Shown here in pieces: positions 15,987-43,348 of a stretch of DNA of 53,928 bases. The stretch is from Deltaproteobacteria bacterium (GTDB lineage Bacteria; Desulfobacterota; WTBG01; CAIYCZ01; CAIRTM01): positions 1 to 53,928 of the forward strand of contig JAJRXD010000115.1 in the NCBI GenBank assembly GCA_024276465.1, read 5' to 3'. The translations under genes were made by a program, and so were the position numbers. Numbering within the stretch: the first letter of the stretch is position 1; each line of letters opens with the position of its first letter. Below the pieces are notes generated by a model. That model was not told where the DNA came from. It was given only the letters and a program-made list of their open reading frames with translations, and did no database searches.

Positions 15987-16925
15987 ATGGCCACAGAAAA
16001 AATTATCCATCCTCCCGAGTTTTTAAAAAAAGATTATCCACTGGTGTCAACAAACAGAATCAAAACAGGGGGCCTTGCCTTATACTTTGCTGCACCTGAG
16101 GACATACCACAACTTCAAAAAACACTTGGCTTCTGCCAGGATAATCACATCCCCTTCTATATCCTGGGTAATGGTTCAAATGTTCTCATCAGCGATGATA
16201 TTTTTCATGGTGTTGTAATTAAACTTGAAGGTAATTTTAAATCCGTGTCGCTTGATCATTACAGTCAAACAGTTATTGCAGGAGCAGGAGCCTCATTGAT
16301 GAAGATGGGCAGTGATCTGGCAGAGCTGGGATATACAGGTTTTTCATATATGGGAGTTATTCCAGGCACAGTTGGTGGAGCAGTAAGAATGAATGCAGGG
16401 ATAAAAAAAGGGCAAGAAATAAAAAACAGTTTTTTAACTGCTTTGGTTCTTGATCCTGACACAGGCATCATTGCTGAATACAAAAAACAGGAAATGGCAT
16501 TTGCTTACAGGGAGAGCATGCTTAAAAAATCAAAAAAAATAATACTGCAGGCAACATTTAAACTTCCCTGCCGTAAAGAAACACAAAAACATGCAGCCCT
16601 GGATACCTTGAAAGAGCTCCTTGAACTGCGCCGCAACAAACATCCAAAAAACCCCTGCACTTTTGGCTCAACATTCAAAAACCCGAAAAACCGCATGCAT
16701 CCAGCTGGCTGGTACCTTGAAAAGGTTGGCATGAAAGGCATGCAAGCCGGGGGTGCAATAATAGCTGAAGAACATGCCAACTGGATACTTAATACAGGCA
16801 ACGCAAAAACAGGCGATGTGAAAAAACTGATAGAAACCGGTCAAAAACGCGTTTCAGAAAAATTCGGCGTTCAGCTTGAACGGGAAGTAATTTATCTGCC
16901 TGAGGATATTGAGGGCTGGGTTTAA
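15987..16925 (+). CDS. murB: UDP-N-acetylenolpyruvoylglucosamine reductase
   Basis: The 312-residue protein shows the MurB signature. FYILGNGSNVLI is the FAD pyrophosphate loop, YMGVIPGTVGGAVRMNAG is the glycine-rich FAD motif, YRESMLK carries the tyrosine-arginine pair, and GSTFKNP is the loop holding the catalytic serine. AGWYLEKVGMKGMQAGGA follows. It reduces UDP-GlcNAc-enolpyruvate to UDP-MurNAc in peptidoglycan synthesis, using NADPH. Normally murB sits among cell-wall genes; here it is alone inside a polysaccharide locus on the same strand as the downstream initiating transferase. It may be the sole chromosomal copy or a second, recruited copy; this window cannot tell. Confidence 0.95.
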   Translation: MATEKIIHPPEFLKKDYPLVSTNRIKTGGLALYFAAPEDIPQLQKTLGFCQDNHIPFYILGNGSNVLISDDIFHGVVIKLEGNFKSVSLDHYSQTVIAGAGASLMKMGSDLAELGYTGFSYMGVIPGTVGGAVRMNAGIKKGQEIKNSFLTALVLDPDTGIIAEYKKQEMAFAYRESMLKKSKKIILQATFKLPCRKETQKHAALDTLKELLELRRNKHPKNPCTFGSTFKNPKNRMHPAGWYLEKVGMKGMQAGGAIIAEEHANWILNTGNAKTGDVKKLIETGQKRVSEKFGVQLEREVIYLPEDIEGWV

Positions 16926-17148: not shown

Positions 17149-18558
17149 TTGAAGACTTTGAATGTTATGTTGCCTATATTCATATATGTTTTCATCTTTT
17201 CATTTATTGTAAGCATTGCCTGTGTTTACTTTTTCATGGGCATTGCTGTCAGGCTGGGTTTTGTTGACCATCCTGAGGAACGAAAAATTCACAAATCCCC
17301 AACTCCTCTCTTAGGCGGTGCAGCAATATTCACAGCAGTCTATTTTACAATCATCTTTCATTATCTGTCTCAACAGGCTGGCCTGCAAAATTACATTGCG
17401 GAAAACATCTGTTCATTTACCGTATGCAATGAATTAAAGCAGGCAGTCCCCAAAGCACCAAAAATATTAACCTGTTTTTTAGGCGGTGTTCCTGTATTCC
17501 TTTTGGGGCTTTTCGATGATAAAAAGGGACTAAGCCCCTTTGTCAGGCTTGCTGGAGAAACAGCTGTGGCAATTGCCATTGTAGCTTCAGGTATCAGGCC
17601 CGGCATTTATGAAGCTTCGCACATCCTTGGATTCGCAATAGCAGTTGGATGGATCGTTGCCATAACAAACGCCTTCAACCTCATAGATGGTGTAAACGGG
17701 CTGTGCGCTGGAAACGCCATTGTTTCATCCATTATATTATTCATGATTTCAATAAAAGGCGGGCATAATCTGACAGGCATGCTTCTTGTAATATTTACAG
17801 GTTCACTTGCAGGCTTTTTCATGTTTAACTTTCCAAAGGGCAGAATATTTTTAGGCAGTTCCGGAAGTATGTTTATCGGGTACACCCTGAGTGTTCTTGT
17901 CCTGTTTCAGTCTTACGGCAGCTCCTCCTGGCGGGGAAACCTGCTGCCCATGGTAATGCCGGTACTTATTCTTTCTGTTCCTTTGGTTGACATACTGCTA
18001 ATAGTTTACAGGCGCTTAAGGAACCGTGTATCGATTTTCAAGGCTGACACCAACCACATTCATCACAGACTGTTACGTCTTAGAATGACCGACAGGGAAG
18101 TTGTCTTTATTGTTCTTCTTTTAACCTTTGCCATAGGAATTAATGCCACTCTTCTTTACAAGTCAACACTGACTGAGAGTCTGATTGTACTAATCCAGGC
18201 ATTTATCATTTTTTTCATCCTGGAATACCTGGTCAGGATAAAAGAGAGGAGGGTTAACAGGAGAAAGTCAGCAAACGGACTTCTGACTGTTCATGTTGAC
18301 TGCGATGAGGCCAGAGATCTGACATTTGAAGGATTTATTGTAGATCTCAGCCCTAAGGGAATAAATTTCTGTCTGTTAAACTTTAAAAAAAATTTCACTG
18401 AAAAAGATTTTTTTGTCGGCAGGAAAATGAAACTTGAGTTTCTGCCTGCAAAACAGACCTTTCATATAGAAAAACCGTTTCAGAACATCAGCGGAAAAAG
18501 TGTGTCACAGGAAAAAGTTGCAGAAAATGCCGTAAGGATAGGGTTTGAAATTGATTAA
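17149..18558 (+). CDS. WecA/TagO-type phosphoglycosyl transferase with C-terminal PilZ-like domain
   Basis: Residues 1-365 form a polytopic polyprenyl-phosphate N-acetylhexosamine-1-phosphate transferase. It has GLFDDKKGL (D123-D124, metal binding), NAFNLIDGVNGLCAG (174-188, active site) and TNHIHHRLL (301-309, the HxxHR nucleotide-contact motif). It would start glycan synthesis by making undecaprenyl-PP-sugar. After the last membrane helix comes a cytoplasmic tail of about 100 residues. The tail has arginines at 367/368 and 371/372 (RxxxR) and DLSPKG at 399-404 (DxSxxG), the two c-di-GMP contact motifs of PilZ domains. The TTG start at 17149 is used; ATG at 17167 is an alternative. The next glycosyltransferase gene overlaps its end by 14 bases. 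Confidence 0.9.
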   Translation: MKTLNVMLPIFIYVFIFSFIVSIACVYFFMGIAVRLGFVDHPEERKIHKSPTPLLGGAAIFTAVYFTIIFHYLSQQAGLQNYIAENICSFTVCNELKQAVPKAPKILTCFLGGVPVFLLGLFDDKKGLSPFVRLAGETAVAIAIVASGIRPGIYEASHILGFAIAVGWIVAITNAFNLIDGVNGLCAGNAIVSSIILFMISIKGGHNLTGMLLVIFTGSLAGFFMFNFPKGRIFLGSSGSMFIGYTLSVLVLFQSYGSSSWRGNLLPMVMPVLILSVPLVDILLIVYRRLRNRVSIFKADTNHIHHRLLRLRMTDREVVFIVLLLTFAIGINATLLYKSTLTESLIVLIQAFIIFFILEYLVRIKERRVNRRKSANGLLTVHVDCDEARDLTFEGFIVDLSPKGINFCLLNFKKNFTEKDFFVGRKMKLEFLPAKQTFHIEKPFQNISGKSVSQEKVAENAVRIGFEID

Positions 18559-19765
18559 AATAAGCCGCATTTGCGAACAGTTTCCACCGGCAGAGGGCGG
18601 CCTTTCTTCAGGGATGTTTGACCTCAGTATGGCACAGCATAAGCTGGGACATGACATCACAGTATTTGCACCTTTGTCAGAAAATTCCTCTGAATTTGAT
18701 TCTAAAACTCCATTTACAGTAACAAGAATACCTTCAAAAAGGATTTTTGATTTCAGCTGGAAAGCTTGCGATGCACTGACAAAGCTTTCCACCCCTCCCG
18801 ACATTGTGCATACACATGGACCTGCAGCATTTAATTATCTTATCAGGCGTACCAACACAGACCCTCCTTTAGTTCACACCATGCATGCTGTAAGAAAATA
18901 TCAATACAATCTCCTTAAGCAGCTGCCTGAAATGGTTAAATCCTTTGAAAAAAAGTCTGGGTTGCAGGTAATACAAAAGCCAAAAAGTTATAACAGAATA
19001 TCACCCAATATTTTCAAAGCTTTCTTCCTTGAAAAATATATTTGTCGGAGAGTGAACCATATTGTTGTTGTTTCAAAATATTTTGCTGATCAGATAAACA
19101 GTTACTATGGTGTGTCTTATGAAAAAATTTCCGTAGTCTATAATGGGAGCAAATTCAACCCACAAAAAGTTTGCAGTGCAGATAATTCCAAATTCCATTC
19201 ATATGGCATCAACACACAAAATGATGTTATCCTGTATGTCGGAAGAACTGACTGGGCTAAACGTGTCCATATTCTGGTTGAAGCAATGCCTGAAGTACTG
19301 AGAAAATACCCGCATGCCTGCCTTATTATTGCAGGGACAGGCGACCAGAACAGAGATCTGTCACAGCTCGTTAAAAAATTAAGACTCAGTAATTCCGTTA
19401 AACTTCTGGGTTGGGTCCCTCACGATGACTTGCCTGAATTATACAATATTGCCAGATGTTTCTGTTTGCCGTCATACTGGGAAGGACTTTCCAAGGCTAT
19501 TCTGGATGCCATGAGTACAGGGGTTCCTGTAATTGCAACAGATAATCTTTCTAACAGGGAGATTTTGCATAATGGCAAGTTTGGCTGGCTGGTAGAAGAA
19601 CCCACACCTGAAGCATGGAGCAAAACAATGGAGGTTGTCCTGTCCGGCAGAGTTGAGGTTAAGGTCAACAGGGCGTCTAAATTGATCGACACAATGTATC
19701 GTTGGGAACATGTTGCTGAAAGGATCGATGTGGCTTATCAAAAAGTTTTAAAACACCTAAGCTGA
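18545..19765 (+). CDS. GT4-family glycosyltransferase
   Basis: The 406-residue GT-B protein begins with a TTG codon inside the end of the PilZ-fused transferase gene (14-base overlap), so the two are translationally linked. The N-terminal EQFPPAEGGLSSGMFDLS holds the glycine-rich loop. DIVHTHGPAAFN, VVVSKYFADQI and VGRTDWAKRVHILVEAMPEV follow the GT4 order. The C-terminal YWEGLSKAILDAMSTGVPVIAT is the EX7E motif. Position directly after the initiating enzyme suggests an early sugar addition, but the sugar is unknown. Confidence 0.92.
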   Translation: MKLIKISRICEQFPPAEGGLSSGMFDLSMAQHKLGHDITVFAPLSENSSEFDSKTPFTVTRIPSKRIFDFSWKACDALTKLSTPPDIVHTHGPAAFNYLIRRTNTDPPLVHTMHAVRKYQYNLLKQLPEMVKSFEKKSGLQVIQKPKSYNRISPNIFKAFFLEKYICRRVNHIVVVSKYFADQINSYYGVSYEKISVVYNGSKFNPQKVCSADNSKFHSYGINTQNDVILYVGRTDWAKRVHILVEAMPEVLRKYPHACLIIAGTGDQNRDLSQLVKKLRLSNSVKLLGWVPHDDLPELYNIARCFCLPSYWEGLSKAILDAMSTGVPVIATDNLSNREILHNGKFGWLVEEPTPEAWSKTMEVVLSGRVEVKVNRASKLIDTMYRWEHVAERIDVAYQKVLKHLS

Positions 19766-23634: not shown

Positions 23635-23640
23635 TTATAA

Positions 23641-24617
23641 ATGAGAGTCTTAATAACCGGCAGCTCCGGTTTCATAGGTTCAGCACTGATGACAGAACTT
23701 ATCAAAAAAAAATTCAGGTAAAAGGAATTGACACTAATTCCCCCCGCTACGAAGAACATGAAAATTATTGGGAACAGACTGATCTTCTCGATAAAACTTC
23801 TTTGTTTGAGTCAGTTGTTCCGTTTAAACCTACTCACATGCTTCATCTGGCTGCAAGGACTGATTTGGGTTTAGATGATGACATAAATGGATTTTCAGCC
23901 AATACAGATGGAATTCGTAATATTCTTAAAGTCTCCCGGAAAATACTGTCTCTGAGGTTTGCAGCCTTTGCATCAACGATTCTCGTGTGCAAACCAGGCT
24001 ATGAACCAACCAATGACTATGATTATCACCCAACAACCCCCTATGGCAAAAGCAAGGTAATAGGCGAAAAACTTGTTCGGGAAGCAGCCGGCAACCTGCA
24101 CTTTAACTGGTGCATCATCAGACCGACATCAATCTGGGGGCCGGGTTATGGCTCCCATTACCTTGATTTTTTTCGTACCATTGCCAGAGGCAGATATTTT
24201 CATCCGGGCAAAGCCAACAATCAGGCAGTTTACGGTTATATCGGAAACTTTGTTTATCAAATTGAAAAGCTCATGGCTGCCCCATCTGAAAAAGTACACC
24301 AAAAAGTATTTTATCTTGGCGACTATTGGCCAACAAGACTCAGGGAATGGACAGATATGATTCATAATGAAACAGGCAGGAGAAAAGTTCGGGTTCTCCC
24401 CAACTGTCTTGCTCGTCTGACTGCTATGTCTGGTGATGTTTTATGGTGGCTTGGCTTGAAAAAAGTACCTTTGACATCATTCAGGTTAAAAAACATGTCT
24501 ATTGACCGTCTATACGACACCTCGTTAATTCAGACAATTGCCAATGATCTTCCATACACTCTTGAAGATGCGGTTAAAGAAACAGTTGCATGGTTAAAAG
24601 CTAATGGAGAAATATAA
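23641..24617 (+). pseudogene. NAD-dependent sugar epimerase/dehydratase, frameshifted at a 9-A tract
   Basis: Translation from ATG 23641 gives MRVLITGSSGFIGSALMTEL, the GxxGxxG NAD loop, then reaches TAA at 23719-23721 just after a run of nine A residues (23704-23712). Restoring one A puts the reading frame into IQVKGIDTNSPRYEE and the rest of an extended SDR protein to 24617. That part includes the catalytic YGKSK motif and the downstream RPTSIWGPGYG. The enzyme would act on a nucleotide sugar. Either the gene is recently broken, the run length is a sequencing error, or polymerase slippage on the A9 run makes some full-length product. Confidence 0.85.
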
Positions 24618-25652: not shown

Positions 25653-26936
25653 TTAGGCCATCTGATTATTGTTTATCACACCTTGTGATTCATTAAGAGC
25701 ATGTTCGTTCTGGAAAATTTTCTCTGCAACAATGGGCAGTATAATCATAATCCAATATAAATAAGTTTCCTGGAAATTAATAAACAGTGAAACAATTATC
25801 ATCCCAATCAAACCAATCTGAAGATACAATGCAAATTCACTGAAAAATTTACTCTGTGTTTTTTTTAATTGCAACAGAGCCCTGAAAGAAATAAAAAAGA
25901 TGGCTGCAAAAGCAGAAAAACCCATTAGTCCCTGCTCAACCAGGACCTGCATAAATGTATTATGCACAACATAGCCATGCCTTCTGTGGCCTAACTCTTC
26001 CCGGACTGCTTTTGTGTATTGAGCCGGCCCTACCCCCAGTAAAGGATGACGAAGCCATAATCTGAATGAATATTTAACGTTAATGATACGACTGCCAGCA
26101 CTATCCTCAAATCTCGTTCTCCCTCCAAGAGATGTTTGTATTGTTGCCTCCCTGCTCTCAAACAAAGCCTGTGCAAAGCTGAAAAAAAACAACAAAACAA
26201 GTCCTGCAATAATTATGGTTGACTTTTTTTTTATGTTTTTAGCAAATAGACATATCGAAACGAAAAACAGCCCCAGGAAACCAGAACGTGAGACAGTGCA
26301 TAAAACTCCGCCAAACAAAACACATACTGTTACAATATAAGACCCTTTTAAAAACTTGTTTTTACCATGCAAAAAGAAGCAATATGCAAGGGGGATGAGA
26401 ACAATCAGCATGGCTGCTAATTCATTGGGGTCGGCCTGGAAGCCGCAACTGCGGTCAAGTATCAGCAGGCCTCTGCCAGACGGCAAGCTGAAAATACGCT
26501 GAATGAGAGCAAATATAGCATTGCAAAATCCGGCAAAGACCATAACTTTAATAAACAGCATAAAATCCTTCATGTTATTTATGTAATTTAAAATAATGAT
26601 TGAGAATAAAACGCATTTAGTAATTGTAAACAGAGACAAGTTAACATCACTGCCTTTATCCAGACTGCTTAAAACAGCAGATAAAATACCTGACAATAGA
26701 TAAAATACTGCCAAAAACATGACTCCCTTTTTGCTGAAGTCCCTGCGATGAAGAAAAGAAGAAATGAATAAAATTATGGCAACAAATAAATTTGTGCGGT
26801 ATTCACTTATTATTGGAACATAATTTTCAGGTCTGAGGTAAAACAAAAGGCTTAAAGAACATATCCGTGCAACAGGCCATATAATCTCAAAAAAAACAAC
26901 CAGTCCTAATATAAATAATGTTAGTATTGTTAACAT
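25653..26936 (-). CDS. O-antigen ligase / Wzy-type polymerase-like membrane protein
   Basis: I use ATG at 26936 (427 residues), where the protein starts MLTILTLFILGLVVFF. A longer frame opening at 27014 would overlap the divergent gene. It has about ten membrane segments. A large periplasmic loop holds GRTRFEDSAGSRI, LWLRHPLLGVGPAQYTKA and HGYVVHNTFMQVLVEQGL, the conserved HxxH/NxF pattern of the Wzy_C (WaaL/Wzy) superfamily. Such proteins polymerise repeat units or ligate glycan to an acceptor on the periplasmic side. Which of the two jobs applies cannot be resolved from sequence. Confidence 0.9.
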   Translation of the reverse strand: MLTILTLFILGLVVFFEIIWPVARICSLSLLFYLRPENYVPIISEYRTNLFVAIILFISSFLHRRDFSKKGVMFLAVFYLLSGILSAVLSSLDKGSDVNLSLFTITKCVLFSIIILNYINNMKDFMLFIKVMVFAGFCNAIFALIQRIFSLPSGRGLLILDRSCGFQADPNELAAMLIVLIPLAYCFFLHGKNKFLKGSYIVTVCVLFGGVLCTVSRSGFLGLFFVSICLFAKNIKKKSTIIIAGLVLLFFFSFAQALFESREATIQTSLGGRTRFEDSAGSRIINVKYSFRLWLRHPLLGVGPAQYTKAVREELGHRRHGYVVHNTFMQVLVEQGLMGFSAFAAIFFISFRALLQLKKTQSKFFSEFALYLQIGLIGMIIVSLFINFQETYLYWIMIILPIVAEKIFQNEHALNESQGVINNNQMA

Positions 26937-26958
26937 AATTATCAAAACATTTTGCAAA

Positions 26959-28248
26959 ATGATAAACTTAAAACTATCTCCTGAAGAATCCCTTGTTCTT
27001 CTGTGTTGCTGCACAGATTCATCAGAAAGCAGAATAGAAAAAATCAGGACTATCGTTTCACTGGAACTTAACTGGGATTATATTCTTAAAATTACATGCG
27101 TGCATGGCATATCAGGGCTTGTTTTTAAAAATACTAAACATTTTCACAATAAAAACGTTATTCCGAACAATTTTACAGAAAAACTGGAGAAAGAATATCA
27201 TAAAACAGCCTACAAAAACTCTTTACTTACACAAGCATACAACAATATCCTGAAGGAATTCAACAGCGAAAAGATTAAAACAATGCCGCTTAAAGGCATA
27301 ACTTTGCTCAGCCAGCTATACCATAATATAGGCCTGCGTTCGATCTCTGATATTGATATCCTTGTAGAAAAAAAAGACTTGCACTGCGCAGAACAAATAT
27401 TAATGGGGATGGGGTACGCCAAAAAAAAAGAATCTGCTTCAAAAATAAAACGCCACTTTCACTCGATTTATTGGAAAAAAATTGGCCCTGTTACTATTCC
27501 TGTGGAACTGCACTGGGATATCGATTTTTTGGATTCCCCTTTCAGTATAAGGATTGAAGACTTTTGGCACAGAGCAGAACTGCTGCATAACAACAATCAA
27601 ACTTACTACAAACTCTCCTTGGAAGACTGCCTCATCTTTAACAGCTTTCACATTCTTAGAGATGGCCTCAAGACATTATATTTAAAAAATTTTTGTGACC
27701 TGTCAGAAATAATAAAAAAATCAGGCACAGAAATTAACTGGGGGGAATTAGCTTGCAGATCAAAGGAATATAAGGTTGAACGACCGGTTTTTTTAGTTTT
27801 ATTACTGCTTAAAAAACTTTTGCAGATTTATATTCCTCTTCACTTTTTTCATAACATCAAGATAGTGGAAAAGGAAGAAGAAAAAATATTTTTTGTGATT
27901 GTCAGCGAAAATATTTTCTTAAAAAAAAGAGATAATATTTACTTTCCGAAGGGGTTACTGGATTTAACATCTGAAAAACATCTGACTGGTAAGTATAGGG
28001 TTGTTTTGGGCATGTTTAAAAACTTTTGTCTTGAGTTTAAGCAGCAGTATTACTCAGACTTCAATCATTCTGTTTTGAAAGGAGCTCAAAGGTCTTCCGT
28101 GAGACACTTCAGAACTTTAAAAAGATATATAAAAATATTTATCTTTTCTCGGTTTAATACACAAAAGGCCAATAACCTTCGCTACAGGAAGGTAAAGAAG
28201 CAAGCGGGAATTGAGGAAATAAATAAGTGGATACGCGAAGATTCATAA
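26959..28248 (+). CDS. Nucleotidyltransferase family protein (PF14907-like)
   Basis: The 429-residue protein begins NLKLSPEESLVLLCC and contains MPLKGITLLSQLYHN followed by RSISDIDILVEKKD. The KG...DIDILV pattern is the hallmark of the uncharacterised nucleotidyltransferase family found in exopolysaccharide and exosortase-type loci. HSIYWKK and VELHWDIDF further on are also typical. The DxD pair probably binds metal; no substrate is known for the family. The gene is divergent from the ligase gene, with only about 22 bases between the two proposed starts, so both promoters must lie within coding sequence. Confidence 0.88.
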   Translation: MINLKLSPEESLVLLCCCTDSSESRIEKIRTIVSLELNWDYILKITCVHGISGLVFKNTKHFHNKNVIPNNFTEKLEKEYHKTAYKNSLLTQAYNNILKEFNSEKIKTMPLKGITLLSQLYHNIGLRSISDIDILVEKKDLHCAEQILMGMGYAKKKESASKIKRHFHSIYWKKIGPVTIPVELHWDIDFLDSPFSIRIEDFWHRAELLHNNNQTYYKLSLEDCLIFNSFHILRDGLKTLYLKNFCDLSEIIKKSGTEINWGELACRSKEYKVERPVFLVLLLLKKLLQIYIPLHFFHNIKIVEKEEEKIFFVIVSENIFLKKRDNIYFPKGLLDLTSEKHLTGKYRVVLGMFKNFCLEFKQQYYSDFNHSVLKGAQRSSVRHFRTLKRYIKIFIFSRFNTQKANNLRYRKVKKQAGIEEINKWIREDS

Positions 28249-36065: not shown

Positions 36066-38723
36066 TTACTTACTGAAAACCAGTCTGTCAAGTATCTCAA
36101 ACACAACCTCCCTTTTAATTGGCTTTGGGACATAGTCATCCATTCCTGCTTCAATACATTCTTCTCTGTCACCTTTCATTGCATTGGCAGTCATGGCAAC
36201 TATTGGTACGTGAGGCCGGGCTTTGGATTTACCGGAAGCCTGTTCAAATACCCTGATTTTTTCTGTTGCTTCAAGACCGTCCATCTCTGGCATCTGTACA
36301 TCCATGAAAATCAGGTCAAAAGTCTCAGGGGCTGCCGTGTACTTTTTACATGCATCTATGCCGTTTACAACTGTCTGCACCTGGTAGCCTGCCTTTGTCA
36401 GCATCTTCTCTGCAAGCTTCTGGTTAACCGGATTATCCTCTGCAAGAAGGATCCTCACGGATCTCTTATACTCTTCAGCAACTGTATGTTTGGTTATGAT
36501 ATGCCTTTCTGTCTCAGCAGCCTCTACCTGTTTTGCTTCACTGTTTCCAAGTATACTTTCAAGCATCCTGTAAAGGTTTTTTCTGCGAATAGGTTTTGTC
36601 AGAAATGCGTCAAACCCTGCCTGCTCACATTCCTTTGCATCCATTTGGGAAGATACGGCTACAAGAGGAATATCTGTCAGATGATTTTTTGGATCACGGA
36701 TCTTTCCTGCAAGCTCAATACCGCTCATACCGGGCATCTGAATATCAGTAAGACAAATATCAAACGGTTCATGCATCTGCAGAGCTTTTTGCAGGGTCTG
36801 AACTGCCTGCTCTCCCCCGGTAAGAGCAACCACACGCACATTGACAAGCCCTAAATAATGTTTCAATATGTCAAGGTTTGTCAGGTTGTCATCAACTATC
36901 AGGACCTTTTTCCCTGAAACAGAAACCGGGACAACCCTCTTTTTATCCTCCTCTTTTGTTTTCTCAAGCCATGCCGTAAAGTGGAATGTGCTTCCAGTGC
37001 CTGTTTCACTTTCTGCCCAGACATCACCGTTCATCAACCTTGATATCGTCCTGCAAATGGTAAGGCCAAGACCAGTACCACCGTACTTTCTTGTGGTTGA
37101 CCCATCAGCCTGAGAAAAAGCTTCAAAAATGCCTGCTTCCTTGCCTGCAGGGATTCCTATGCCGGTATCCCGGATTGTTGTGTGAATCTTTACCCTGTTT
37201 TCATTTTCCTCTTCAATGTCAAGACCTATCTCAATTTCTCCGGATTCTGTAAACTTGGAAGCATTGCCCATGAGATTGGTAATAACCTGCCTGAAACGCG
37301 TTGGGTCTCCCTTTACCTGCGAGGGCAGATCATCACCAATATGGCATAGTATCTCAACCGGCTTGCCTGCAACCTTGGGCCTGATTATCTCGCAGATATC
37401 ATATGCTAAAAGCTCAGGGTCAAAATCTATCTTTTCCATATCCATCTGCCCGGCCTCGATCTTGGAAAAATCAAGGATGTCATTTATCAGGGTAAGAAGG
37501 GCCTCTCCGCTTCGTTTAATTGTTTTTGCATACTCTATCTGCTCCCCGTCCATGCCGGTGTCAAGCATCAGATCTGTAAACCCTATTACACCGTTCATGG
37601 GTGTTCGGATCTCGTGACTCATATTTGCTAAAAATTCACTTTTGGCCATATTGGCCATTTCTGCCTGCAGGGCCATCTCGTTAGACTTGGCAACTGCCTG
37701 TTCAAGCTGCAGGTTGATGTTTTCGGTGTTAATCTTTTCCTGTTGCAGCTTTTCCTCAGCCTTCTTACGGCTGTTCACTTCATTCTGAAGATCAGCGTTT
37801 AATGCTTTCAACTCTCTGGTCCTGTCAGCCACACGCTGTTCTAAAGATTCACACACTGAGTGCAGTTTCTCAACCATAACATTGAAACTCTTTGCCAGTA
37901 TCCCAATTTCATCATTACCACAGTCATCTAAAGGTTTAATCAGCGAGTCATCTTTTTGCTCGGCAGCATTTCTAAAATGATTGGTAAGCAGCACAATTTT
38001 ACTTTCAATCAGGGAATAGAAGAGCAGATACAGAGCAACCAGCAGAACAAACAAACCAATAATCATAACAATAGAATTTGCAGCAGTATGTCTAATAGCA
38101 GCTGATCTGTATTTTGAAACCGGAACTGCAACACTATCCAGCGCAATAACATCACCTGAAGAGCGATAAAAACCGTTTTTGTCACCATATCGTTCCAGCA
38201 GAGATTTTGGAGCATCCTTTGGGTCACCGTGGCAGCGAAGACACTTCTGCCTCATCCGTATTGCATGAAAATGAGCCTGGTACAGTTCCCCATCCAACTC
38301 AATCTGTCCTGACCATTCTTCAACTTTTGGGTTTTCGTTGAAATAATTGATCATTTCAAGTTCCCTGGCACTTGCCTGGTTAAGAGGATTCCTGGGATTA
38401 TCCGATGAAAACTTGATAATATAATCTGGAAACTGCTTTCGGACTTTATCGAAAATACTTCGTGCAACAAAATATGTTGACATTATTTCAGGTATGAATT
38501 GGTCATGATCAACATGTTGCTCATCGAATGGGCTGATGGTTTCTGCAACATATTGGCGAACAGCAAGGTTAAAGCTTAATACAAGCTCATCCTGTAAAAG
38601 CAGCAACTCATTAGTATGAGACTGGTTTTGGGACCATGTTCGAAAAAGAATAAAACCTGAAAAAATAAGTGCAAATATCCCGACTATGATTAAAAACTTA
38701 CTTCTAATAGTACAGGGAATCAT
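36066..38723 (-). CDS. Hybrid sensor histidine kinase with periplasmic DUF3365-like CxxCH domain and two receivers
   Basis: The 885-residue protein begins with a membrane helix (about 10-28), then a periplasmic domain (about 30-212) with CLRCH at 161-165, a c-type haem attachment motif, in a DUF3365/Tll0287-like context. A second helix (215-237), HAMP (about 238-295) and coiled coil follow. HisKA has its histidine at 370 in [15 protein letters not shown]. The ATPase has DTGIGIP and GGTGLGL. Receiver 1 contains [11 protein letters not shown] and receiver 2 contains [11 protein letters not shown]. The layout suggests redox or ligand sensing through haem and a phosphorelay. No HPt domain is fused, so a separate HPt protein or direct receiver output is needed. 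Confidence 0.93.
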
Positions 38724-39427: not shown

Positions 39428-41803
39428 TTACTGTGCTCCAGCCAAACCCCTCCTTAAATTTATTACAAGAAAGCCCACACAGGTCAATTTCAGCAGGGCA
39501 ATAAAAAAACATGTATTCTGAATTCCGAAAAGAGGCAAAAGAACAACACCGGTTAAAAAAGATCCGAAGCACGCTCCAAAATGGTCCGCAGCATCAACTG
39601 AGCCTGCTGTAGAACCACTCTCACAACCACTGCTGATAAGCAGATGGCATACCAGCGGAAACTCCATTCCTGTAAACAGGGCTATTACAAATATAAGTAC
39701 AAAATAGAAGTATTCTGTTAAAAAAAATGGAGTTATGCCGGCATTTGCAGTTTTAGAAATCAGCGAAAGTATGAACGGGGAAGCTGCAGCATAAGCAAAT
39801 ATTATAATCTCAAGTGTAATAAGGAGTTCAAACCTGACAAACTGCGATCTTTTCAGCCATCTGCGCATAAAAAGGCTTCCAACAGCAATCCCCATCATGA
39901 AAAGTGCAACCACAACCCCAATTTTTTCATATATATATCCAAAAAAACTCTGGAACATAAAAACAAGGACCATCTCCATAGCCATACCAGCATACCCTGT
40001 AGTACCAATCGCCCAGAGACAACTGAAACGAATCATTATTTCTCTGTTTTTCACTAAAAAACCCATACATCCTGAAAGAAAAATAAGGACGATCGCAATA
40101 TAAAAACACCAGACGCCTTTCTCCTTAATATCCCGGAAAAAACCAATCTCTCCCTTTTCTCCTGAAAGCATGTCCCATAGAACAAGATTATAAAAATAAG
40201 TAACAGGATGAAAGTCTGTATTAATATGCAGGTCTTTTTTTGCAGTCAGTGCATTTTCCAGAAACTCAATTCTGTCTTTCTGCAGCAGCCATTCAAAAAG
40301 CAGGGGTGAAAAGTTTTCTGTATTAATATTTCTCTTCTCATACCGCATGGAAAGAACACCCGGGTCTTTTGTAAAAAGCCCATCTGCAGTACCGGCAAAA
40401 AAATAATTTCTTTCGCCCGGAACAACCATAACAAAAGGGAAAACATTTGAAAGTCCAGCATAAAGAGATCCATTGTAATCAGCAATTTCACGGCTGATAT
40501 AATTTGCTGTTGATGACATCCCTATTATCAGGACACCTTTATCCGAGAGAATTTTTCGTACCTCATTAAAAAAATCCACTGTATAAAACCTGTTCAGGAG
40601 GGCTGTTGAAGGATCGGGGGTCAAAACAATAACCAGATCATATTTCCCCCCAGCCTCTTTAACAAACCTGCGGCCATCCATATGAAAAACCTCTACCCTC
40701 CTGTCTTTGACTGCTTTTTTGTCACCTGGTTTTAAAAAAGGGTAGATTATCCGGACAAATTCAGGGTCAAGCTCAACATAGTCCACAGATTTCACAGGGT
40801 GTTTGAGCATCTCCTTCAAAAAACCTGTTATTCCTCCTCCTATTAACAGAACCCGCCCGGGATCAGGATGCTCTGAAAGGAAAAAATGGGCTCTGAGAGC
40901 TGACTGATATTCATCAGGATATGTGCCTGACAAAATTCCATTTCCAAAAATACCATACTGCTCCTGGGCTTCGGCAAGAACAATGTTCTGGTACTGCGAA
41001 TCCCTGCTTACAATAAGCTTCAGACCGGTTTGAAAGGTATTCCACCTGAGCTTCTCCAGATATCTGTCAAAATCCCGGGGGCTTCCTCTAATGATGACAA
41101 TTAGAACAACGAGTGACAGGAAAAACAATAATGCTTTTAAAAAACCCGAACCCTGCCTGACATAACATGCAAGTAAAAAAGAGGTTGAGAAAATCAGCAG
41201 GCAGCCCCATGCAAAAACAACCATCGGAGGGTACATGGGAATCAGCAAAAAAGAGATAATAATACCGCCTGCCAGGCTGCCTGCTGACTCCCAAATATAA
41301 ACCCATCCTATTTCAATACTCCCCCTTGAACTGTTCCCGATAAGCACCCGGCATGCCAGGGGGAAAACAACACCCACCATAAAACTGAAAGGAGTTATCG
41401 AAATAAAAGTTGCAGCTGCAATATGAGCTGCTGATGCATATCCACCCGGAGGAACTTCGAATATTGCTCTAACCACTCTCATAACAGGTATTAACAAAAA
41501 GGGGAGCAGGCACAGGAGAACAACGAAAACAAGGAAAACCGGTATTACATGGTCTGTTTTTTTACGGATCTTTCCCCCGACACAGGATCCTATCCCTATA
41601 CCGGCAAACCATCCTGAAAATATTATTCCTATACAAAGTTCATTCCCCAGAAACACCACAAGCAGTTCACGAATAAAATAGATCTGGGCAGCAATAGAGT
41701 ACGCGCCTATCAAAACAAATATTAATGTTAACAAATAAATGTTTGACCTTTTGGTTCTAATTCTGTTACTAACTTTATCTATCTTCCTGGAACTTTTTTT
41801 CAT
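39428..41803 (-). CDS. Membrane-embedded spermidine-synthase-like protein
   Basis: The 791-residue protein has about six to seven N-terminal membrane segments (about 20-235), a soluble domain (about 240-530) and a second membrane bundle (about 560-785). The soluble domain reads RVLLIGGGITGFLKEML and VDYVELDPEFVRI (SAM/decarboxy-SAM-binding Rossmann loop), then VFHMDGRRFVKE and YDLVIVLTPDPSTALLNRFYT, the aminopropyltransferase core. Fused transporter-like/spermidine-synthase proteins are widespread but mostly uncharacterised. The catalytic aspartate is replaced by TPDPS (normally DxxDP), so polyamine synthesis is not assured. Its 5' end is divergent from the PilZ gene, 49 bases away. Confidence 0.85.
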   Translation of the reverse strand: MKKSSRKIDKVSNRIRTKRSNIYLLTLIFVLIGAYSIAAQIYFIRELLVVFLGNELCIGIIFSGWFAGIGIGSCVGGKIRKKTDHVIPVFLVFVVLLCLLPFLLIPVMRVVRAIFEVPPGGYASAAHIAAATFISITPFSFMVGVVFPLACRVLIGNSSRGSIEIGWVYIWESAGSLAGGIIISFLLIPMYPPMVVFAWGCLLIFSTSFLLACYVRQGSGFLKALLFFLSLVVLIVIIRGSPRDFDRYLEKLRWNTFQTGLKLIVSRDSQYQNIVLAEAQEQYGIFGNGILSGTYPDEYQSALRAHFFLSEHPDPGRVLLIGGGITGFLKEMLKHPVKSVDYVELDPEFVRIIYPFLKPGDKKAVKDRRVEVFHMDGRRFVKEAGGKYDLVIVLTPDPSTALLNRFYTVDFFNEVRKILSDKGVLIIGMSSTANYISREIADYNGSLYAGLSNVFPFVMVVPGERNYFFAGTADGLFTKDPGVLSMRYEKRNINTENFSPLLFEWLLQKDRIEFLENALTAKKDLHINTDFHPVTYFYNLVLWDMLSGEKGEIGFFRDIKEKGVWCFYIAIVLIFLSGCMGFLVKNREIMIRFSCLWAIGTTGYAGMAMEMVLVFMFQSFFGYIYEKIGVVVALFMMGIAVGSLFMRRWLKRSQFVRFELLITLEIIIFAYAAASPFILSLISKTANAGITPFFLTEYFYFVLIFVIALFTGMEFPLVCHLLISSGCESGSTAGSVDAADHFGACFGSFLTGVVLLPLFGIQNTCFFIALLKLTCVGFLVINLRRGLAGAQ

Positions 41804-41852
41804 GGTAAATTCAGGTTATAATAGGAGATTCAACAAAACAAGAGTCTTATTT

Positions 41853-42215
41853 ATGGAAAGAGAAAAAAGAGCACGTACAAGAATTCCTCTGCATTTTGAT
41901 ACAGTTGTTGAAGTTAACGGAAAAAAGGTCTCTGCTAAGACATTTGACCTCAGCATGAGGGGTATCCAGTGTTCCCCTGACCCTGAATTTAAAGCGGGCC
42001 GTACATGCCGCGTTGTCTTTATACTCAGCCCTGAAATAAGGTTCAAGGTTGAAGCTGTAATTGCAAGGGCATCCGGAGATAAAACAGGATTTTTTTTTGT
42101 AAGCATGGGAGAAGACAGTTTTTACCATCTTAAAAAACTTGTGCAGTACAATTCGAATGATCCTGACAAAATAGAAAATGAAATGGCAACACCAGTTAAA
42201 AACAGACAAAAATGA
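41853..42215 (+). CDS. PilZ-domain protein (c-di-GMP receptor-like)
   Basis: I choose ATG at 41853 (120 residues, MEREKRARTRIPLHF). A longer frame from 41739 overlaps the divergent gene and adds a family-foreign leader. R6 and R10 form RxxxR and D32-G37 is DLSMRG (DxSxxG), the two c-di-GMP-binding motifs. The rest is a compact beta-barrel typical of stand-alone PilZ proteins. Its stop overlaps the ATG of the MscS-like gene (ATGA), so the two are translationally coupled, suggesting c-di-GMP input to, or co-expression with, the channel. Confidence 0.88.
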   Translation: MEREKRARTRIPLHFDTVVEVNGKKVSAKTFDLSMRGIQCSPDPEFKAGRTCRVVFILSPEIRFKVEAVIARASGDKTGFFFVSMGEDSFYHLKKLVQYNSNDPDKIENEMATPVKNRQK

Positions 42216-43348
42216 GCTTTAAGGTATTCATCAAAGAATTTCTCAGTCTCTTCAAAACAGACAGTGTTATTCTGGGCATACCCGGCTTAACAATTATTGC
42301 CGTTGCAGCCATACTTACTATAACATTGCTTTTTCGAAGGCTGTTTTCACTTGTAGTAATAAAATATTTCCAGACACTGGCCAGAAAAACAAAAACAGAG
42401 CTTGACGATACTTTAATACAAGTTCTTGAAAAGCCGCTGAACTCATTAATAATTCTTCTGGGTTTTATAGCCAGCAGAATGCTTCTGCTATCATACATCA
42501 ACCCTAATCTTGACAATACTCTTCAAAGCCTTCTGCAGTTCTCTCTTGTCATAATTTTGTGCTGGTTTTTTTACTCCAGCGCAGACATTATCTCAGGGTT
42601 CCTGTAAAAATTTGCCCTTAGCACCAAAACTGAGCTTGATGATATCCTGGTTCCCTATATTCGCCTGGTGATAAAAATTGCAGCTGTCATTATTGTCATG
42701 ATGAAGGCTGCCGAGCTTTTCCTTGGCATGTCTGCTGCATCTCTTATAGGGTTAGTCGGTGGCATGGGCCTGACCATAGGGCTGGTTTTCAAAGACATCC
42801 TCTCTAACTGGGTCGGCTGCAGTATTATCTATGTTGACAATCTGTTCCGTGAAGGCGACTGGGTACAGCTTGATGACGGTAAGATTGTGGATGCTGATGT
42901 TGAAACCATAGGGATTCGCAGCACAAAGTTCCGCAACTTTGACAAAACCATTTCTGTTGTACCCAACAATACCATTGTCAGCTCGGTGGTTAAAAACTGG
43001 TCAAAAATGTACAAACGGCGTGTGAAATACAGCTTCAAAATTGACGGCATAACAGTAGTAAAGCTTGAACGTATCCTTTCGGGAATTCGTGAGATCCTGA
43101 CAAGCGATGAGGATGTCCATCAGGAATTTCACATGGTAAATTTCAGGGAGTTTGAGGGGAATGCCCGCATTATTCGACTGTACTATTTTTCCAGGACAAC
43201 ACTATGGAAAGAGCATGAGCAGGTTCGCGAAAACATAAACATTAAAATATTAAAACTGTTTGAAAATGAGGGGATTGAAAGGCTGGCCTATACAATTGTT
43301 GACCTGAGCGAAGACCGTCCACACGATTTTGAAGTAACAAAGGCATAG
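42212..43348 (+). pseudogene. MscS-family mechanosensitive channel interrupted by in-frame TAA
   Basis: Residues 1-131 (ending at TAA 42605-42607) contain the N-terminal membrane helices. The same frame continues without shift as KFALSTKTELDDILVPYIRL into the pore helix AASLIGLVGGMGLTIGLVFKDIL, the beta domain (REGDWVQLDDGK, VETIGIRSTKFRNFD, VVPNNTIVSS) and the C-terminal alpha/beta domain. The 3' part has its own ATG at 42668 and would make a 226-residue protein retaining the pore helix but lacking outer helices. A single base change would restore the full 378-residue protein, so this is either a fresh nonsense mutation, read-through, or a split gene. Confidence 0.88.

Follow-up and report, generated by a model that had tools for sequence, protein, structure and literature searches.

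A WecA-type polytopic phosphoglycosyl transferase homologue with a C-terminal PilZ domain and two replaced active-site acids

The window, which is the whole 53,928-nucleotide stretch of DNA analysed here, represents a surface-polysaccharide region, in which many glycosyltransferases accompany Wzx- and Wzy/ligase-like genes. Among them lies a gene for a WecA-type membrane protein that carries a C-terminal PilZ domain. The fusion gene and the neighbours discussed here are arranged as follows.

607-2055: Wzx-like flippase.
15987..16925, + strand: murB, directly upstream of the fusion gene and the only MurB_C gene found in the genome.
17149..18558, + strand: PilZ-tailed WecA-type polytopic phosphoglycosyl transferase homologue of 469 aa, a single open frame with TTG as its listed start.
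18545..19765, + strand: glycosyltransferase (GT4/GT-B type); counted from its listed TTG start, it overlaps the 3' end of the fusion gene.
25653-27014: Wzy/ligase-like protein.

The initial annotation described a protein of 469 residues at 17149-18558, and the open reading frame check confirmed it as one frame except for the start codon, which is uncertain. The alignment with the orthologue from another genome begins at ATG 17167 (residue 7) instead of TTG 17149, suggesting that this ATG is probably the conserved start; residue numbers are nevertheless counted throughout from the listed TTG (17149). The fusion of a polytopic phosphoglycosyl transferase (PGT) with a C-terminal PilZ domain is real and very rare. 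The glycosyltransferase gene at 18545..19765 is probably co-transcribed with it. The genome harboring the orthologue (G004) belongs to another genus of the same family, and its genes are ordered murB, Wzy/ligase homologue, nucleotidyltransferase homologue, transposase and fusion. Thus, the same four kinds of gene are found together in both genera, in rearranged order. G004 likewise possesses one MurB_C gene, which is located near the fusion and beside a polysaccharide cluster.

The membrane core and its active-site positions are distributed as follows.

17149..18222, + strand: Glycos_transf_4/WecA membrane core, residues 1-358 (PF00953, E 1.9e-28; 11 hydropathy-predicted spans).
17515..17520, + strand: D123-D124, the conserved DD motif, equivalent to D90-D91 of E. 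coli WecA in the homologue alignment.
17695..17697, + strand: N183, replacing an Asp (D159 of E. coli WecA) that is present in 33/33 other homologues.
17857..17859, + strand: S237, replacing the metal-site Asp of xGDxGS (D217 of E. coli WecA; D265 of MraY), which is Asp in 32/33 and Glu in 1/33 of the others.
18055..18069, + strand: HIHHR, residues 303-307, conserved in the homologue alignment.

The Pfam match to Glycos_transf_4 covers residues 109-252 and reaches 99.9 bits against a cut-off of 27. The best NCBIfam model for the fusion protein is WecA, but its score of 130 bits stays below the cut-off of 326. The last of the 11 predicted spans ends near residue 362. In this simple hydropathy estimate, DD123-124, N174-N183, G236-S240 and HIHHR303-307 all lie in odd-numbered loops, and the tail counts as odd-numbered too, which places it on the catalytic side. 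The PilZ domain is therefore probably cytosolic, on the same membrane face as the active-site loops. The motif set of the polytopic PGTs, namely DD, NxxNxxD and HxHH(R), is complete in the fusion protein, with NxxNxxD formed by N174/N177/D180 (residues 174-180) in the homologue alignment.

E. coli WecA was among the 33 homologues with which the cores of the window protein and its orthologue were compared. The fused pair retains 23 of the 28 near-invariant positions, and the five altered ones are K133R, Q137 (Glu in the window protein and Val in the orthologue), D183N, P230K and D237S. Both N183 and S237 are common to the two fusions, and the alignment with solved MraY gives the same xGDxGS site at S237. 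The earlier statement that every catalytic motif is present was thus incorrect, because N183 takes the place of WecA D159 and S237 that of D217, while DD, NxxNxxD and HIHHR are there. The assignment to the WecA/TagO type holds in terms of homology, as given by PF00953, but the enzyme is non-canonical, having two near-universal active-site acids replaced in both known copies.

Solved and assayed relatives indicate what the two replacements could mean. In MraY, D265 has been described as a catalytic residue near the bound Mg2+ (PMC5039524). In human DPAGT1, D252 chelates Mg2+, and the D252A variant keeps 7% activity while D252N shows 5-fold higher activity (PMC6218659). The same enzyme is active and contacts uracil through Asn191 (PMC6218659), a residue that by its spacing would correspond to N183. 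N183 alone is thus compatible with activity, and its use as the mark of a dead enzyme was dropped.

The C-terminal region of the protein contains the following features.

18235..18555, + strand: C-terminal PilZ domain, residues 363-469, predicted cytosolic (profile, shuffle, alignment, fold and hydropathy).
18250..18264, + strand: RxxxR, R368-R372 (c-di-GMP motif 1), which aligns with the Arg pair that is invariant in 19 PilZ domains.
18343..18360, + strand: DLSPKG, D399-G404 (c-di-GMP motif 2), which is DLNSKG in the orthologue.

The RxxxR and DLSPKG motifs noted in the initial annotation are both present, and the Arg motif can be read as R367/R368xxxR371/R372. Among shuffled tails, 41% contain RxxxR and 3.3% contain [DN]xSxxG, whereas only 0.3% have both motifs ordered and spaced as in PilZ. 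The profile search proposed for this region supported the PilZ assignment in part. With the whole fusion protein as query, no PilZ family was listed in Pfam at E 0.01. The tail alone returned PilZ (PF07238) as the sole family, with an E value of 0.012 and a score of 16.4 bits, lower than the curated cut-off of 22.5; this cut-off is set by the database and does not mark a biological property. This E value was computed over 24,736 models and is therefore strong for a single hypothesis named beforehand. Moreover, when an HMM built from the PilZ domains of the window genome and the orthologue genome was run against 20,000 composition-matched shuffles, the score of the window tail was equalled by 1 shuffle and that of the orthologue tail by 0. 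Profile-profile comparison by hhalign gave 94.5% for the two tails against 19 PilZ domains encoded by these genomes, one pair reaching E 8.3e-8, and R368, R372 and G404 are invariant in 21/21 rows of the joint alignment of tails and PilZ domains. When the two-row tail profile was searched against PDB sequences, only chance matches were obtained (Numb, E 0.67).

Structure prediction is in line with the expected fold. The AF2 model of the tail, calculated with PilZ rows in the alignment, is a six-stranded beta-barrel with a pLDDT of 80, whereas the prediction from the two tails without PilZ rows is unreliable (pLDDT 37). The best 17 Foldseek matches in the PDB are all PilZ proteins, with BcsA first and VCA0042, YcgR, Alg44 and PlzA also among them. 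The sub-threshold Pfam score and the low-confidence fold obtained without PilZ rows would suit an ordinary WecA homologue whose basic tail resembles PilZ by chance. Such a coincidence is very improbable, as the profile, shuffle and fold evidence converges, and the tail is conserved across two genera and ends in the last-strand pattern of PilZ (IGFEID). We therefore regard the PilZ homology of the tail as established with high confidence.

PilZ proteins that bind no nucleotide and dock partners are found in type IV pili. Similarly, the fusion could be an active transferase whose PilZ-fold tail docks partner proteins without binding c-di-GMP. This is unlikely in our estimate, given that both motifs are complete in the window copy and that the two fused copies share the same Arg cluster, KERRVNRRK. 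The docking alternative draws on the weak Pfam score and on motif 2 of the orthologue, in which Asn replaces the Ser of DxSxxG. Motif 2 is thus not conserved between the two fusions, which is the strongest point against a nucleotide switch being conserved.

The orthologue shares 55% identity with the window protein over the full length, tail included. Synonymous differences between the two fusions are saturated (pS 0.70-0.78), and non-synonymous differences (core, 0.26; tail, 0.34) are lower than the 0.71-0.72 obtained under random pairing, indicating that both parts are under purifying selection. Two tail-less homologues fall together with the fused pair (99/99) in the maximum-likelihood tree; at the metal site, one of them (L065) keeps Asp and the other (L031) has Glu. 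Since these sisters keep the acids, tail gain and acid loss would have occurred on the same branch, which leads to the fused pair, as far as the sampling resolves.

The proposed survey of related genomes revealed this one orthologue. Of 395 genomes from the window's phylum (taken as Omnitrophota), the tail profile detected the fusion in just these 2, and the others gave neither a matching full-length protein nor a matching tail. Distant WecA homologues that acquired a PilZ domain independently could have escaped this survey. A third tail match (E 2.7e-4) comprises 47 positions within a 67-residue frame with internal stops. A contig scan with the full protein gave two relatives, both tail-less. 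In 296 genomes of a second phylum, none of the matches listed reaches the tail, and among plasmids, none of the 35 records with a WecA-like match spans 80% of the query.

The main alternative arising from the replaced acids is a PilZ-controlled pseudo-transferase, the core of which would bind undecaprenyl phosphate, a UDP-sugar or partner enzymes without transfer, and which would serve the cluster as a regulator or scaffold that responds to c-di-GMP. The acids at the D159 and D217 positions are missing in both fusions and in none of the 33 homologues (with Glu once at D217), their loss sits with the fusion branch, and canonical WecA-like paralogues are present in both genomes, while the protein is under selection nonetheless. 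However, we consider a loss of transfer less likely than the favored reading below, as the remaining active site is largely preserved, including DD, NxxNxxD and HIHHR, and the Asn at D159 is paralleled in DPAGT1, in which moreover the substitution of the Mg2+ ligand by Asn boosts activity.

We favor the reading, with a probability of roughly 45%, that the fusion is a c-di-GMP-responsive, non-canonical initiating transferase, for which nucleotide binding, catalysis and gating are all inferred. Besides the fusion, the window genome has 15 Pfam matches to PilZ and 8 to GGDEF, which makes c-di-GMP signalling plausible, and an Rfam scan of the window gave zero matches, hence no known c-di-GMP riboswitch. 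In the proposed mechanism, c-di-GMP would bind R368/R372 together with D399LSPKG404, and the PilZ barrel would then shift relative to the cytosolic loops, as in BcsA, and would thereby switch whether UDP-sugar or undecaprenyl phosphate can reach the core. BcsA provides a precedent for PilZ gating, but only by analogy. The Ser at the metal site and the DPAGT1-like N183 at the uracil position suggest that basal activity is probably low or the donor unusual. Control of the first committed step by c-di-GMP, as put forward in the initial annotation, would thus be conditional twice over, on nucleotide binding and on transferase activity. Besides motif 2 of the orthologue, the sub-threshold Pfam score and the dependence of the fold on PilZ rows, two more points count against the favored reading: the canonical WecA-like genes of these genomes could perform initiation, and the fusion has lost the Mg2+-site Asp, without which DPAGT1 is only 7% active. 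In evolutionary terms, we more tentatively propose a lineage-specific protein, either a regulatory pseudo-transferase or a metal-site-altered transferase, in which sensor gain and Mg2+-ligand loss fell on one branch and c-di-GMP may gate initiation via one polypeptide.

The fusion shares features with several known systems. E. coli WecA, TagO and WbcO, polytopic PGTs of the PNPT superfamily, have the same Glycos_transf_4 core, DD, NxxNxxD and HIHH motifs and 11 predicted spans, but the fusion differs from them by N183 for D159, S237 for D217 and an extra PilZ tail of 107 residues. Human DPAGT1 (UDP-GlcNAc:dolichyl-P GlcNAc-1-P transferase) belongs to the same superfamily, and its Asn191 would match N183; it retains D252 as the Mg2+ ligand, a position occupied by Ser in the fusion, and is without PilZ. 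The cellulose synthase BcsA, the best structural match of the tail, is likewise a membrane protein for sugar transfer that has a PilZ domain at its C-terminus, in the cytosol. However, it is a processive GT2 polymerase rather than a lipid-linked phosphoglycosyl transferase, and the two cores are unrelated. BcsA is allosterically gated by c-di-GMP, the binding of which to the PilZ domain frees a gating loop (PMC8461298). The closest regulatory precedent is the EpsW-EpsZ pair of Myxococcus xanthus, in which an initiating PGT is under post-translational control (PMC12802240). In contrast to the fusion, EpsZ belongs to the large monotopic PGTs and is activated by a second protein, the phosphorylated response regulator EpsW, and no PilZ has been described in either of them (PMC12802240).

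Control by c-di-GMP is well documented for the synthase-dependent polymerases of cellulose, alginate and Pel (PMC8461298). Post-translational control of Wzx/Wzy-type pathways was described in 2025 as incompletely understood, regulation being known for few initiating PGTs (PMC12802240). In a literature search covering few subscription journals, no description of a polytopic PGT with a PilZ domain was found. A PilZ domain covalently attached to a PGT would place a switch at the step that commits undecaprenyl phosphate, and the fusion offers a single-protein system for testing such a switch. In addition, the linked loss of the metal-site acid constitutes a natural test of the role of this residue in the superfamily.

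Other genes of the window also encode PilZ or sensory proteins. A stand-alone PilZ protein of 158 aa (PF07238, 1.3e-8) is located at 41739-42215 (+) on the same contig, followed downstream by an MscS-type channel at 42668-43348. A hybrid histidine kinase at 36066-38723 (-) combines a Tll0287-like sensor domain with two receiver domains. Furthermore, the region 23635-24617 (+) contains an epimerase-like ORF at 23802 without its N-terminus, and MRVLITGSSGFIGSALM... immediately precedes it in a different frame. Both frames extend across an A9 run near 23705, where they overlap, and the split reflects a frameshift or an assembly error.

Other WecA homologues of the window's phylum (L003, L004, L008, L021, L070 and L072) are fused to CoA_binding_3 (PF13727), the assignment of L070 and L072 being based on tail sequence and tree position. 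The CoA_binding_3 module is typical of large monotopic PGTs, and its occurrence on polytopic PGTs is worth a survey. These Omnitrophota proteins (for example L070, L004 and L008) resemble the PilZ fusion in joining a polytopic PGT with a C-terminal add-on, but the add-on is of Rossmann type and the active site is canonical. Four further WecA homologues (L005, L007, L012 and L023) possess C-terminal tails of ~140-170 residues. The tails of L005, L012 and L023 were scanned and had no Pfam match, and those of all four may represent another sensory add-on.
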